From: Halomonas sp. 54_146
Lineage (GTDB): Bacteria; Pseudomonadota; Gammaproteobacteria; Pseudomonadales; Halomonadaceae
Length of the DNA stretch: 64,000 bases
Direction of reading: 5' to 3'
Assembly (NCBI RefSeq): GCF_001507855.1
Contig: NZ_LGEN01000010.1
Coordinates: 1-64,000, forward strand
Part shown: positions 1 to 8,944 of the stretch, one piece after another
Layout: each line of letters begins with the position of its first letter
Position numbering within the stretch: the first letter of the stretch is position 1
Program-made: the position numbers and the translations under genes
The notes under the pieces: generated by a model
Told to the model about the DNA's origin: nothing
Databases searched by the model: none
Seen by the model: the letters and a program-made list of their open reading frames with translations, nothing else

Positions 1-225
1 CCCGTCGAATGCGCAAGGAGTTTGCGAAAGAGCTGGCACCTTATTACTGGAAACCGTACTTCTGGAACCGCGCTTACGCGCTGATCAGTGTGGGTGGGCA
101 CGCCAACATAGCGACCCTACTTCGCTACATCGAAAACCAAGACGACCCTCGCAAGCTCGGGCAGCCGCTAAACTAGCGCATCACGCTGCGCGTCGATGCG
201 TAGGATGCGCGGCTTAATTGCTCAA
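1..225 (+). mobile_element. Right end of an IS200/IS605-family element
   Basis: The window opens inside a transposase of the Y1/HUH type and the element ends shortly after its stop codon. After the stop (174-176) GCGCATC at 176-182 pairs with GATGCGC at 204-210, a subterminal hairpin of the kind that marks IS200/IS605 ends. A TCAA tetranucleotide, resembling the right-end cleavage site of IS608, lies at 222-225, so the border is probably at about 210-225. These elements make no target duplication, so the border cannot be proven from one end. The family is well supported by the protein; the exact end is inference. Confidence 0.6.
3..176 (+). CDS. IS200/IS605-type TnpA transposase, C-terminal part (cut by window start)
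   Basis: Only the last 57 codons are present, in the frame starting at base 3. The fragment has the aromatic pattern of TnpA C-termini: YYWKPYFWNRAYALISVGG, then an amphipathic helix with RYIENQ. In TnpA this region follows the HUH motif and carries the helix end near the catalytic tyrosine; those residues lie outside the window. TnpA is a single-strand DNA transposase that cuts at hairpin-guided sites. The gene points towards the downstream ATP-grasp gene, whose start the element appears to have removed. Confidence 0.7.
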   Translation, partial: RRMRKEFAKELAPYYWKPYFWNRAYALISVGGHANIATLLRYIENQDDPRKLGQPLN

Positions 226-1396
226 TGCGATTGAAGCGGCTGAAAATTTTGACCGTCGCTACATTGTCGTTGCACCTGATTGGGCAGAAGAGTATTGCCA
301 GAAACACGATATCCCTTATGTACCTTGGAATTTCGAGCGCCTTAATGACCGTTCGATGGAAATCGCTGAGACGCTCAAAGCAAAAGGCGTTGATGTCGCC
401 ATCCCCCTCTACGAAGAAACCGTTGAATGGGCGGGGGCGATCAACTCAGTGCTGCTGGATAACCCACGCCTTTACGGTCAATCACTGCTCCTGCGCGATA
501 AAGCGCTGATGAAGCGCCGCGCTCAGCTAGGCGGCATCCGTGTAGGTATTTTTGAAGAAGCCCACGACAAAGAAGACGTGGTGCGCTTTCTTAAACGTGT
601 TAACCAGACACTGCTAAAGCTGGATGGCGACCCCAACGACCCGATTCACCTTAAAGCGTTTGATAAAGCGGGCTGCTTAGGCCACCGTGTTATCCGCACG
701 CCAGATGAAGTGGATACTATTCCGGATGAAGAGTTCCCTGTCTTAATGGAATCACACCTGGATGGCTGGGAATTTGCTGTCGAAGCGTGGGTTCACGATG
801 GCAAAATCGCTTTCTTGAACATTTCTGAGTACGTAACACTGGGCTACTCGGTGTTTGTGCCTGCCTCGCCAGAGCTTGAGATTTATCGCGAGCAGATCAC
901 TCAGCAGATCGAAAAGCTTATTAAAGCGTTCGATATTGAGTTTGGCTTGATTCACCCAGAATACTTTGTCACCAGCGATGGTGAAATGTACTTCGGCGAG
1001 GTGGCGTATCGTCCGCCTGGCTTTAAAGTCTTTGAGCTATTAGAGCGTGTTTACGGCTTCAACGCTTATCAGGCATCCATGCTTGTGTTTGACCCGAAAA
1101 GCAGCAAAGAAGAAGTGGCCGCGTTTTTCCCGAAAGAAGTGGTCGATGCCAACGGTTTTGCCGGTTGCTTTGGCGTTTACCCACGCCGTCGCGTGGTCAG
1201 CCGCCTGGAAATTCCGGAAGAAACCGAAGATCACCCCTACTTTGAGTCTCATGAGCTAACCTCTCCAGTAGAAGAAACCGTCACTAAACGCACCGCGTTT
1301 GGTACCCATTGGGGTCTGATCTACTTCAAAGGCGAAGACGCGCATACCATTCGCGATCTGTTAAAACGCCAAGAAGATCTCGACTTCTATGTATAA
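218..1396 (+). CDS. ATP-grasp domain protein, N-terminus probably lost to IS insertion
   Basis: The 392-residue ORF shows the ATP-grasp fold of carboxylate-amine ligases: a pre-ATP-grasp Rossmann-like part (1-85), an ATP-contacting Lys in LKAFDKAG (K146), the FPVLMESHLDGWEFAVE segment (about 173-189), and the metal-binding end HPEYF...GEVAYRPPG (H246, E261, R265). The first residues form the helix that normally follows the first beta strand, so about 15-30 residues seem missing. An in-frame TAA (215-217) lies just before the TTG start, there is no Shine-Dalgarno, and the IS end abuts it; the first ATG is at 356. The core catalytic residues are present. The next gene follows after 30 bp with its own AAGGAG site, so the two form an operon. 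The substrate is unknown; ligation of an amino acid or peptide is family-based inference. Confidence 0.75.
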   Translation: MLNAIEAAENFDRRYIVVAPDWAEEYCQKHDIPYVPWNFERLNDRSMEIAETLKAKGVDVAIPLYEETVEWAGAINSVLLDNPRLYGQSLLLRDKALMKRRAQLGGIRVGIFEEAHDKEDVVRFLKRVNQTLLKLDGDPNDPIHLKAFDKAGCLGHRVIRTPDEVDTIPDEEFPVLMESHLDGWEFAVEAWVHDGKIAFLNISEYVTLGYSVFVPASPELEIYREQITQQIEKLIKAFDIEFGLIHPEYFVTSDGEMYFGEVAYRPPGFKVFELLERVYGFNAYQASMLVFDPKSSKEEVAAFFPKEVVDANGFAGCFGVYPRRRVVSRLEIPEETEDHPYFESHELTSPVEETVTKRTAFGTHWGLIYFKGEDAHTIRDLLKRQEDLDFYV

Positions 1397-1426
1397 TCCC
1401 TGCTAACGCTGGGATAAGGAGTCACC

Positions 1427-3529
1427 GTGAAGACAGATCAAGTTACGTCTTCTCAAGAAGATAGCAAGCTCAATGGATTGTTGAGCAAGTTTGATGATGC
1501 CGTGTGCCTGCTAATGCAGGCACCCGCCTTTTCAAAGCCCGCCAAGCTGCCGCGTGTGATGGATACCGCGCGGCGGATACTGCTTTTGGATGGCGGCTGC
1601 GAAGCATTAGAAGCTCGGGCACACGAATACGAGTCTGCCGGTGTATTTGCAGGCTCTGATTGGGAAACCCCCCAGTTCCTGGTGCCGACACTAACCACGT
1701 TTGCGCTTAAAAGCGCGGATGCCAACGTGGTGGTCATTGAAGCACTAAGCGAGCTTAGGCTACTCTCTGTCGCTAAAGGAAATTTCGAGCACTCGCTGGT
1801 ATCCGCAGAACATGCTCACCATTACCTGACTCAGGTGATGGCGATTAATTTATGGCTGCTGTTCTTACCGCCCAGCGAGGCAGAGCGCGAAACCCAAGGG
1901 CGACTGGCGACTATCCCCCGCCAGCTTTTCAAGCATTTAGCCGAACGAATTGGCTACGAACATATTGTTGATCGTTTGATTGATGAAATTTGGCGCATTT
2001 TAAAACAGCGCCCGATTCAGGTTGATGCGATCAAGCAGATGATCACCCAAATTGCGCTGTGCCAGGCCAACCCGGAGATTGACCTTGGCGCAAGTGGCCA
2101 AGGTGCCGACCGGCTGGTCAGTTCGCTTTACGGGCCCACCCAAGCCTGTCGCGAAGACCCTGGCGTAGACGTTTATCGCGACCGATTAGAGTACATGGAT
2201 CAGGCTGCGCTGCAGGCTGAGTCCACCGGTTTCGCCCGTGCGATGCACGATACCGGGCTGGTATCGCCCTATCATGCCGTGTTGCTGCGCCACCTGCTTG
2301 AAGAAGGTGACCACTTACTTTCTGAAGCATTGGGGCTTTCTTCCACCGGCCGCGATTGCCTGCTGTGTTACCGGGAGCTTGTTCAAGCGCTGATTCGTGG
2401 TGGCGTTTACCCCGCTACCGCTCAAGCGGTGTATGGCCTGGCGCTAATGCTTGAACGCGGCATTCTCTATCAACCACCGGTGGCACCCGCCATGTGGCGC
2501 CAGCTGAACCTACCGCTCTCAGAGTGGGCGCAGTCGCGGCTTACCGTTGCATATGGCGACAGTGTCTCTCCCCGTGCCCGCCTAATTGAAGGCGTACTGT
2601 GCATGCTGGGGCTGCCCTTGGGCGTTGGGCAAGGCAATAACCCGACCTGCCAATCAGCCCGTGCGCTTTCCATGTGGGCGTATAACGACCCAGACTACCT
2701 GCTGCAGATGGTGGCGTGGGCGGCACGCGACGACGAAATCATTATGCATTTTGAGGGTCAGGCCATCTCATCGATGGAGAGCCTGTCCGGTGTCGCCACA
2801 GAATTGCCGATGGACCTAGACCCAGTTTCGCTGATCGTCGTCCCACACTTGGACCGTATTTATGCGGAAATGGGCAGGCGCTGTATTGGCCGCGAAGGCG
2901 ACCCCCACCGCTGGGTTAACCCCGAGTTTCACGGCTGGTGGTCGGGTCGCGGTTTCCGCATCAATGTAGATGTCGCCACCGGGCAGCTCAGCGATGTAGA
3001 TGACTTCCTGCGCCATTTCTACGCCAGCTATCACCCTTATTACAATGGCAACCAACCGCTGATTCATCCTCAGCCAGCGGGTATTGCGGTTACCGATAGC
3101 GCAGCGCGGTTTATTGGCTGGCACGCGATTACCATTTTACGGGCCTCACTGGATCCTACTGATGTCATGCGGGTTTACTTCTATAACCCCAATAATGACA
3201 GTGGGCAGGATTGGGGTGATGGGGTCATTGTGAGCACATCGGGTAACGGCGAGCGCTTTGGTGAGGCCTCGCTGCCTTTTGAGCGTTTCGCATCGCGGCT
3301 GTATATTTACCACTACGACCCGCTGGAGCGCGGTGAACTGGTATCAGTGACCAGCGAAGAGTTGGAAAGTGTTAAACACTACTTGCACCGTAGCTGGGGA
3401 GCCGCACGCTTGCCGCCTACTGAACTGCAGGCAGATCAAGGCGGAAGCTCAGCGCTAACCGACTCAACCTTAACCAACTCAACCCTAACCGACTCAACCC
3501 CAAGCGATGCATCCCCAGGTGTGGGGTAA
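1427..3529 (+). CDS. Large protein with putative papain-like cysteine peptidase domain, partner of the ATP-grasp gene
   Basis: I do not recognise this 700-residue protein as a named family. The GTG start follows AAGGAG by 5 bp. Residues 1-390 are mostly helical without a clear motif. From 395 a papain-like arrangement can be read: Q402 and C408 in GQGNNPTCQSARALS (six residues apart, as Q19 and C25 of papain), H566 in GWHAITIL, and N587 in YFYNPNN. That is a full Gln/Cys/His/Asn set in the right order. No signal peptide or membrane segment is seen. The C-terminus is a low-complexity tail of 5-residue repeats (T/A-L-T-D/N-S). Its place right behind an ATP-grasp ligase suggests peptide-bond making and breaking on a shared substrate. 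A transglutaminase-like or amidase activity is equally possible. Confidence 0.7.
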   Translation: MKTDQVTSSQEDSKLNGLLSKFDDAVCLLMQAPAFSKPAKLPRVMDTARRILLLDGGCEALEARAHEYESAGVFAGSDWETPQFLVPTLTTFALKSADANVVVIEALSELRLLSVAKGNFEHSLVSAEHAHHYLTQVMAINLWLLFLPPSEAERETQGRLATIPRQLFKHLAERIGYEHIVDRLIDEIWRILKQRPIQVDAIKQMITQIALCQANPEIDLGASGQGADRLVSSLYGPTQACREDPGVDVYRDRLEYMDQAALQAESTGFARAMHDTGLVSPYHAVLLRHLLEEGDHLLSEALGLSSTGRDCLLCYRELVQALIRGGVYPATAQAVYGLALMLERGILYQPPVAPAMWRQLNLPLSEWAQSRLTVAYGDSVSPRARLIEGVLCMLGLPLGVGQGNNPTCQSARALSMWAYNDPDYLLQMVAWAARDDEIIMHFEGQAISSMESLSGVATELPMDLDPVSLIVVPHLDRIYAEMGRRCIGREGDPHRWVNPEFHGWWSGRGFRINVDVATGQLSDVDDFLRHFYASYHPYYNGNQPLIHPQPAGIAVTDSAARFIGWHAITILRASLDPTDVMRVYFYNPNNDSGQDWGDGVIVSTSGNGERFGEASLPFERFASRLYIYHYDPLERGELVSVTSEELESVKHYLHRSWGAARLPPTELQADQGGSSALTDSTLTNSTLTDSTPSDASPGVG
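3452..3511 (+). repeat. 15-bp tandem repeat in the 3' end of the papain-like gene
   Basis: Three good copies and one decayed copy of a 15-bp unit (3452-3466, 3467-3481, 3482-3496, 3497-3511) encode ALTDS, TLTNS, TLTDS and TPSDA. Because the unit is a multiple of three, copy changes would keep the frame. Confidence 0.85.
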
Positions 3530-3557: not shown

Positions 3558-4316
3558 ATGATGCGACTAGATCAACTGTTGGTCAGCCAAGGGCTGGCCA
3601 ACTCGCGTACCCGCGCCCAACGGCTTATTCGTCACGGGAGAGTTCGCTTAGCCGAAAATGGCAAACCGCTAACCAAAGCGTCTGAGAAATGGCCAGAAGA
3701 CACCCGCTTTGAGGTAGAAGACGACCCCGAAGAACGCTACGTGTCCCGTGCAGGGTTAAAGCTAGAGGCAGTGCTCACCGCGCTTGCGCTACGTTTTGAC
3801 GACAGCGTGGTGCTCGATGTCGGTCAATCAACGGGCGGTTTCACCGACTGCGCGCTGCGTTTTGGCGCCCGCCATGTGATTGGCGTGGAAGTTGGCCATG
3901 GCCAGCTTGCTCCTGAACTGCAAAACGACCCACGCGTCACCTGTTTGGAGGGGTTAAATGCACGCTATATGCGTAGCGCTGAAGCGCTGCAAAGCGTGCT
4001 GGCTGTTCAGCCCATTAACATCGCTATTATGGATGTCTCGTTTATATCTCAAACGCTGATTTTGCCTGAAATCGCTGCCCTGCTACCACCAGGCGGGCAG
4101 CTCATCTCGCTGGTGAAACCGCAGTTTGAGCTAACCCCTGGCGCTCTGGATAAGCGCGGCGTTGTCCGCGACGCTAAGCGATTTGCCGACGTTGAAGCCA
4201 GCATCCGCAGCGCCTGCGACCACTGCGGGCTGACGATTCATCATTGGCAGGAAAGCCCTATCACCGGCGGTGATGGCAATCGCGAATTTCTCCTTCATGC
4301 GGTAAAGCAGGCCTAA
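3558..4316 (+). CDS. tlyA: TlyA-family rRNA 2'-O-methyltransferase (hemolysin A-like)
   Basis: A 252-residue protein with an N-terminal S4 RNA-binding domain (about 1-60, starting MMRLDQLLVSQGLANSR) followed by an FtsJ-type methyltransferase domain. The SAM-binding motif LDVGQSTGGFTD and the DVSFIS segment are present; the usual motif has A where this has Q (DVGASTGGFTD). In mycobacteria TlyA methylates 16S and 23S rRNA; in gammaproteobacteria its role is less clear. Two adjacent ATG codons (3558, 3561) are possible starts and no strong ribosome site is seen. It lies 28 bp after the papain-like gene on the same strand and converges with mscK. Confidence 0.9.
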   Translation: MMRLDQLLVSQGLANSRTRAQRLIRHGRVRLAENGKPLTKASEKWPEDTRFEVEDDPEERYVSRAGLKLEAVLTALALRFDDSVVLDVGQSTGGFTDCALRFGARHVIGVEVGHGQLAPELQNDPRVTCLEGLNARYMRSAEALQSVLAVQPINIAIMDVSFISQTLILPEIAALLPPGGQLISLVKPQFELTPGALDKRGVVRDAKRFADVEASIRSACDHCGLTIHHWQESPITGGDGNREFLLHAVKQA

Positions 4317-7722: not shown

Positions 7723-7903
7723 GTTAGTTATGCCTCGTTGACATCGAATGCTCCGCCTATGCGAACCAGAGCGTTATTGTCAGATGTTCTGATAGCCAAC
7801 GCAATCAGCAGCGTGACAGAAACAAGAGATGTTGACTTCCGCAGGCGGCGTGATAGAAACAAGCTTGGCATTTGCCACCTCATTCATTTTGCGAGTTACC
7901 TTG

Positions 7904-8944
7904 ATGGTCACCCGAAAACTGCCGTTCAAGAAGTTCATCATTATGCTGAGCCTTACGACGCTCAGCACGTATGCTTTTGCTGAAACACAAGATGAGATCG
8001 AAGCGCGTATACGGGCACTTAACGCTGAGTTGTATGATTTACGCCAGCAGTTACAGCAAGTACAACAGGCTGAAAACCCTGAAGAAACCGTGCTTGGCCT
8101 GCCATTTGAACCGCTGCCGGAAGAGGCTGCACGGGAAGACTTAAGCGATCGCCGTGCGCTTGAGCAGGCTTCAAGCCGAAATCCATTTTCAATCACCACC
8201 CACCGCACCAATTACCTATTTCCGGTTAGCTATAATGCTAATCAAAACCGCGCAAAATTCATTAACATTTCTGATGATTCAGAAGTGGATAGCATGGAGT
8301 TAAAGTTCCAGTTCAGCGCTAAGGTTAATTTAGCTGAGCAGGTATTTGGTGACTACGGCGATGTCTTTTTTGGCTACACTCAGCGAAGCTGGTGGCAGGC
8401 TTACAATACCGACGCTTCATCGCCCTTCCGAGAAACTAACTACGAGCCAGAAATATTTATCGATTTTGATACTGCCTGGGGCATATTGGGTTGGGTAAAC
8501 ACCCGCAACCGAGTCTCTCTTAATCACCAGTCTAATGGGCGCTCAGCACCGCTTTCGCGTAGCTGGAACCGTGTTTATCTTGAAAGCACTTTCCAACACG
8601 GCGACTGGGCATTCACTGTGGCACCGCATTGGCGCGTTCCCGAATCAGACCACGATGATGACAACCCTGATATCGAACGCTACATGGGATATGGCGATAT
8701 TCGCTTATCAAAACGCCTAAACAATAACCATGAAGTAAGCGGGCTGTTACGTGGCAACCCCAGCGCAGGCAATCTGGGTACGCAAATTGATTACAGCTGG
8801 CCAGCGTTTAATAGCCTGCGCGCACACGTACAGTACTATTATGGCTACGGCGAAAGCATGGTTGATTATGACCATCGCGTGCATCGTTTAAGCCTTGGGT
8901 TTAGCTTAAATCCCTTATTTAGTGCCACGGGACTGAACCGATAG
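7904..8944 (+). CDS. pldA: Outer-membrane phospholipase A
   Basis: OMPLA, a dimeric beta-barrel that hydrolyses phospholipids misplaced in the outer leaflet of the outer membrane. The catalytic segment LNHQSNGRSAPLSRSWNR carries His208, Ser210 and Asn222 (E. coli H142, S144, N156). The open frame extends upstream to 7829, but the ATG at 7904 gives a proper signal peptide (basic VTRKLPFKK, hydrophobic stretch, cleavage after AFA), so I chose that start (346 residues). Residues 25-60 of the mature part look like a coiled coil rich in Gln and Glu, an extension absent from enterobacterial PldA. The IS element sits 29 bp after the stop. Confidence 0.92.
   Translation: MVTRKLPFKKFIIMLSLTTLSTYAFAETQDEIEARIRALNAELYDLRQQLQQVQQAENPEETVLGLPFEPLPEEAAREDLSDRRALEQASSRNPFSITTHRTNYLFPVSYNANQNRAKFINISDDSEVDSMELKFQFSAKVNLAEQVFGDYGDVFFGYTQRSWWQAYNTDASSPFRETNYEPEIFIDFDTAWGILGWVNTRNRVSLNHQSNGRSAPLSRSWNRVYLESTFQHGDWAFTVAPHWRVPESDHDDDNPDIERYMGYGDIRLSKRLNNNHEVSGLLRGNPSAGNLGTQIDYSWPAFNSLRAHVQYYYGYGESMVDYDHRVHRLSLGFSLNPLFSATGLNR

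Follow-up and report, generated by a model that had tools for sequence, protein, structure and literature searches.

A recurrent gene pair of a putative ATP-grasp ligase and a probable cysteine enzyme in Halomonas sp. 54_146 and related Gammaproteobacteria

What do two adjacent genes at the left end of a Halomonas contig do together, and does one depend on the other? We analysed 64,000 nucleotides of Halomonas sp. 54_146 (the window, which runs from base 1 of contig NZ_LGEN01000010.1 onward; C6 in our numbering of the strain's assembly, genome G000), in which two open reading frames (ORFs), P1 (218-1396) and P2 (1427-3529), are co-directional. A preliminary description had taken them for an intact ATP-grasp ligase gene and the gene of a papain-like cysteine peptidase, and had suggested that the two form a pair. 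We found that P1 and P2 are indeed a real pair, their pairing lying far beyond chance, and a functional link between them is strongly supported. The theme of an amide ligase with a cysteine enzyme is known; this particular pair and the P2 family are unnamed in the libraries searched, and the regular co-occurrence of P2 with the ligase points clearly, and in a way that can be tested, towards a possible new system for making amides. The features on which the argument rests are the following:

3-176, + strand: end of a transposase gene of an IS200/IS605-type insertion sequence (IS), Y1 class (C-terminal 57 codons and stop; PF01797 Y1_Tnp), its 5' part cut by the contig start
176-225, + strand: right end of the IS, with a hairpin at about 176-210 and the end at TTGCTCAA, about base 225
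218-1396, + strand: P1 ORF, 392 amino acids (aa), apparent TTG start; 3' part of an interrupted gene of a putative ATP-grasp ligase
1427-3529, + strand: P2, 700 aa, GTG start, frame unbroken; belongs to an undescribed family in which a Gln-Cys-His-Asn set is invariant
1427-2560, + strand: predicted all-helical N-terminal region of P2 (AlphaFold secondary structure; approximate boundaries)
2579-3418, + strand: C-terminal candidate catalytic domain of P2, residues 385-664 (domain alignment A5, 36 sequences)
2630-2632, + strand: Gln402 codon, candidate oxyanion-hole residue (69 of 69 rows)
2648-2650, + strand: Cys408 codon, candidate nucleophile (69 of 69 rows), first residue of predicted helix 408-420
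3122-3124, + strand: His566 codon (69 of 69 rows), within predicted strand 562-575
3185-3187, + strand: Asn587 codon (69 of 69 rows), right after predicted strand 581-586

Co-occurrence of P1 and P2

With a strong match defined as E below 1e-40, 99 of the 151 Halomonadaceae genomes carried both genes and 52 carried neither, and no genome carried a single gene (Fisher P about 1e-41, kinship ignored). Excluded beforehand were G113 and G026, in which both genes are reduced to scraps, and G018 and G044, which had nothing but weak P1-like matches; with scraps included, P2 was present in 101 of the 151 genomes. In G113 the ends of P1 and P2 persist side by side as remnants, and G026 was left unused as evidence of joint decay because its weak P1 and P2 scraps overlap each other. 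Broken copies among the 99 genomes were seen in G009 (P1), G118 (P1 and one P2) and G137 (P2). The same pattern held in a sample of 369 gammaproteobacterial genomes, in which strong matches gave 13 with both genes (11 without Halomonadaceae) and 356 with neither, one of the latter (G264) having a distant P1-like match of 82 bits. P2 was present in 13 of these 369 genomes and in 11 of the 398 of a phylum sample, where all five P2 genomes outside Halomonadaceae also hold P1. G437 has both genes although they lie about 55 kb from each other, and three Marinobacter-type genomes, G575, G672 and G637, have three P2 each with 2, 2 and 3 P1, respectively.

P2 is a large protein to which none of the family libraries searched gives a name. 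Scanning species genomes with it yielded at least 590 related stretches, from which 80 loci were kept. These belong to Halomonadaceae, Marinobacter, Alcanivorax, Pseudomonas and Halopseudomonas, Guyparkeria, Haliea, Saccharospirillum, Marinimicrobium, Ectothiorhodospiraceae and unplaced Gammaproteobacteria. Full-length P1 lies upstream of P2 on the same strand in 70 of the 80 loci; among the remaining 10, one is cut by a contig end (L111), five have only a C-terminal P1 scrap, and four have no P1 beside P2. In 24 representative operons the P1 stop and the earliest P2 start are 1-76 nt apart, and P2 paralogues (about 42-57% identical) have P1 divergent, nearby or elsewhere.

For the two proteins, pairwise identities correlate at 0.79 over 50 loci (species kinship uncorrected), with P1 far more conserved (mean identity 83%) than P2 (65%). 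In quick tree searches, Haliea nests inside Halomonadaceae in both the P1 and the P2 tree, although its nearest neighbours differ between the trees and the inner forks have middling support, and this placement suggests that P1 and P2 were transferred together.

Around the pair, no further ORF cluster was common to more than 7 of 30 loci, as judged by mechanical ORF calling, which missed P2 in two loci, and by clusters that were not individually annotated. We also looked in 24 loci for a RiPP-like precursor, among stretches of at least 25 codons no further than 700 bp from the pair, and rejected it: no stretch had over 7 matches in other loci, and those listed, the best 12 of each side, are from Halomonadaceae. 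Phage cargo was rejected, with no phage or viral-contig relative of the pair found, and so was plasmid cargo, for which the one candidate, a 1.83 Mb "plasmid" of Halomonas sp. PA16-9, is plausibly a mislabelled piece of chromosome. No description of the P1-P2 pair was found in the literature, which was searched mainly by title and the start of the abstract and so gives no proof of its absence from print.

The P1 and P2 proteins

The ATP-grasp assignment of P1 given in the preliminary description holds at borderline strength, and P1 appears to be an ATP-grasp enzyme that comes closest to BacD and other L-amino-acid ligases. P1 matches ATP-grasp_4 (PF13535) with E 8.8e-6 and the L-amino-acid ligase 4wd3 of the Protein Data Bank (PDB) with E 2.5e-5 as a protein alone, while its alignment matches the PDB L-amino-acid ligases 4wd3 (E 3e-4) and 3vot (E 7e-4). 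The aligned part spans the ATP-grasp core in both and, for 4wd3, takes in the GE(V/I)AxR segment. K146, E248, E261 and R265 (window numbering) are invariant in 55 rows and, judging by one alignment, may be nucleotide and Mg residues.

P2 is probably a cysteine enzyme of an undescribed family. In an alignment of 69 rows (the window protein and 68 homologues, one of the rows being partial and the most distant one 41% identical to the window protein), Q402, C408, H566 and N587, whose positions are exactly those first reported, are invariant in every row, so that none of the four is lost from any aligned homologue; C408 is the sole invariant Cys among the 9 Cys of window P2. The chance that a randomly picked C, H, N and Q of P2 would all be invariant is about 7e-4. 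A Gln six residues before the Cys, followed by His and Asn, is the order and spacing of papain-type enzymes, and it is kept across the P2 family. In the AlphaFold model of P2 (mean predicted local distance difference test score, pLDDT, 64), a helix (408-420) begins exactly at C408, H566 lies inside a strand (562-575) and N587 directly follows another (581-586); the best modelled block is residues 11-170, at pLDDT 76-95, with lower values beyond.

P2 had nothing credible up to E 1 in Pfam, NCBIfam, PDB, PADLOC or PHROGs, a profile of 17 P2 relatives matched PDB no better than E 0.58, and the PADLOC defence models matched neither P1 nor P2 up to E 1. Two weak hits were judged to be chance, namely tPilZ (E 0.0012 in 1 of 17 members) and a C1 propeptide model (E 0.19 in 1 of 36). 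At its C-terminus (about 3450-3526) window P2 carries a short repeat, LTDST/LTNST, which is missing from the 16 other aligned relatives.

Interruption of P1 and the type-B copies

P1 had first been regarded as an intact gene starting at 218. The ORF exists, but its start lies inside an IS end, and the gene is interrupted by an IS200-type element after about 18 codons in this strain. The product of bases 3-173 of the window matches PF01797 (Y1_Tnp) with E 4e-8 over profile positions 78-121 of 121, and positions 1-88 of contig C3 of the same genome carry the same IS end (98% identity), the two sequences parting after TTGCTCAA at about window base 225. The TTG at 218 directly follows a TAA and falls within this stretch; since the right end of the IS extends to about 225, the TTG is IS sequence and not the genuine P1 start. 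The P1 of relatives is longer at the N-terminus by about 16 residues, and window P1 corresponds to about residues 18 to 407 of the full protein. Codons 1-20 were matched at C45:88-147 of the same genome, where they are followed by a second hairpin-like IS end and the end of the contig; in relatives, the flank upstream of the pair is syntenic with C45, and the P1-P2 part is syntenic with the window. The ends of this IS200/IS605-type element sit where contigs of the assembly end (window 1-225, C3:1-88 and C45:1-90). The right-end hairpin has a DNA fold of -12.4 kcal/mol, no stronger than shuffles (z -1.1), and the left-end hairpin is somewhat stronger than shuffles (z -2.3).

The same genome has a full P1 copy, 80% identical to P1, at C67:62817-64031, and is without a second P2. 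This copy is of type B, which we defined as a P1 match starting at residue 3 with 78-81% identity; it is solitary (locus L185, 8650-10035), is extended at the N-terminus by some tens of residues, and lies near a gene that we presume, from its sequence, to encode glutamate dehydrogenase. Type-B P1 occurs in 20 of the 99 genomes, and the three in the tree (G000, G092 and G145) share one starred clade. Nine of the 99 genomes (G000, G058, G080, G096, G129, G132, G039, G092 and G145) lack type-A P1, which is interrupted, reduced to a scrap or missing altogether, and every one of them has type B (P 1e-7, kinship ignored). Where one copy of P1 is naturally broken, as it is in this strain, the dependency between P1 and P2 can be tested.

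At the Halomonadaceae loci L060, L062, L063, L065, L069, L089, L093 and L121, a C-terminal P1 scrap or no P1 stands beside P2, and at least four of these eight correspond to sampled genomes with a type-B copy. At locus L104, P2 and a type-B P1 are about 7 kb apart.

Possible mechanism, rival readings and known systems

We propose that P1 and P2 form a two-enzyme cassette in which P2 acts on an amide made by P1, a reading that we regard as evenly poised. The cassette would most likely be cytosolic, with members that need each other. P1 would activate a carboxylate with ATP as an acyl phosphate and join it to an amine, giving a peptide-like amide; Cys408 of P2, aided by His566, Asn587 and Gln402, would then form an acyl-enzyme (thioester) with the P1 product, and P2 would either hydrolyse this intermediate or transfer its acyl group to a second amine. 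The preliminary suggestion, that the pair might ligate and trim a peptide, is a reasonable possibility. The strict co-occurrence of P1 and P2 favours successive steps over an optional eraser, and the three P2 with two or three P1 in Marinobacter-type genomes suggest that P2 may set specificity.

Several points weigh against the cassette. For P1, the ATP-grasp_4 score is close to the curated cut-off of 27 (25.9 bits for the protein and 27.3 for the genome), and the structure model is poor (pLDDT 47). For P2, residue invariance is modest evidence, since 77 positions are invariant over the 69 rows, and residues 393-512 have pLDDT below 50, so the closeness of C408, H566 and N587 cannot be read from the model. 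There was no PDB fold match for P2 at E 0.001 or better, a search that is uninformative for the catalytic part. In hhalign, alignment A5 (the window and 35 of 41 segments found) scored 14.9 against DUF3335 (PF11814) and 12.2 against Peptidase_C39_2 (PF13529), below the shuffle medians of 15.8 and 14.7, at an effective query diversity of only 2.1, which limits this comparison. The targets comprised 17 of 20 matches and 30 of 42 places, respectively, with flanks of at most 60 residues; column shuffles (60 each) reached maxima of 25.7 for DUF3335 and 23.5 for Peptidase_C39_2, the reversed P2 query outscored the true one (15.2 and 17.4), and the two targets found each other at 99.9% as a positive control. 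With regard to dependency, G009 and G118 have type-A P1 only as two pieces and no type B, G118 also having its type-A P2 split and another P2 whole; this either speaks against a strict need for P1 or reflects sequencing errors. With these two genomes counted, type B is present in 9 of 11 lacking an unbroken type-A P1 (P 4e-6, kinship ignored), a proportion that still speaks for the cassette. Kinship among the sampled genomes makes the formal P values too strong.

Because of the low pLDDT, the failed profile comparison and the low query diversity, we hold the papain-like nature of P2 to be likely and no stronger: the motif and predicted secondary structure fit, as first suggested, while profile similarity to DUF3335 or Peptidase_C39_2 was not found. 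It is rather improbable that P2 has another fold, its invariant residues serving a different reaction and the ligase being joined by an unrelated partner or subunit; the failed profile and fold comparisons would suit this, whereas the residue order, the Gln-Cys spacing, the helix at the Cys and the strands at the His and Asn all fit papain.

Two other readings keep a papain-like P2 and give the pair a different role. Strict co-occurrence, which suits consecutive steps, would also agree with a pathway to a small metabolite, where P2 would serve as an acyl or aminoacyl transferase, similar to the BtrH family, and use the P1 product. One report places papain-like transacylases of this sort (BtrH, "New_papain") beside peptide ligases in peptide-metabolite clusters (PMC2922099). 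These are many-gene clusters, in contrast to the two genes that recur here, and the scarcity of recurrent neighbours, as judged by ORF calling that missed some genes, makes the pathway an unlikely one. A low probability likewise attaches to a writer and eraser of a protein mark, in which P1 would add an amino acid or short peptide to a protein and P2 would remove it. Tubulin-tyrosine ligase (ATP-grasp) and vasohibin (papain-like) form such an add/remove cycle and are the protein-tag counterpart. The large all-helical N-terminal region of P2 could bind protein partners, and the P2 surplus in Marinobacter-type genomes would be expected if P2 picks targets; yet P1 is nearest to ligases of free amino acids, no additional ORF cluster widely recurs beside the pair, and an eraser need not always travel with its writer, whereas no sampled P1 was without P2 by strong matches.

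The pairing of amidoligases with peptidases is not new, and gene neighbourhoods of this kind were reportedly described by Iyer, Aravind and co-workers in 2009. L-amino acid ligases (BacD, BL00235; ATP-grasp_4) share the ATP-grasp core with P1, to which their likeness is remote; bacilysin-type genes were not searched for, and across the loci compared only P1 and P2 recur. The nearest working precedent is glutathionylspermidine synthetase/amidase (GspSA), in which an ATP-using amide ligase is coupled to a cysteine amidase acting on the same amide (PMC6272389). GspSA is, however, one fused protein with a CHAP amidase, whereas P1 and P2 are separate genes and P2 has no Pfam CHAP match. GNAT-DUF3335 papain-like proteins (PMC10318531) share with the pair and with amidoligase-peptidase neighbourhoods the theme of a ligase with a papain-like partner; unlike them, the strain's genome has no DUF3335 match.

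Extending the cassette further, we tentatively picture a self-sufficient two-gene pathway that has spread horizontally between Gammaproteobacteria of marine and halophilic kinds. Its BacD-like ligase might make a conserved product of a new sort, either a peptide-like compound or a tag on proteins; P2, as a new papain-like family built on a helical scaffold, might transfer or mature that product, and P2 might have been duplicated for different acceptors while one ligase is shared. We think this doubtful as a whole.

Downstream of P2 lies a gene of the TlyA family of rRNA methyltransferases (3558-4316, TIGR00478). By position and ORF cluster, 5 of 30 loci, all of them from Halomonadaceae, have this gene close to the pair, and therefore it is not part of the P1-P2 system. 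Further on, the ORF at 7829-8944 presumably encodes a protein resembling outer-membrane phospholipase A.

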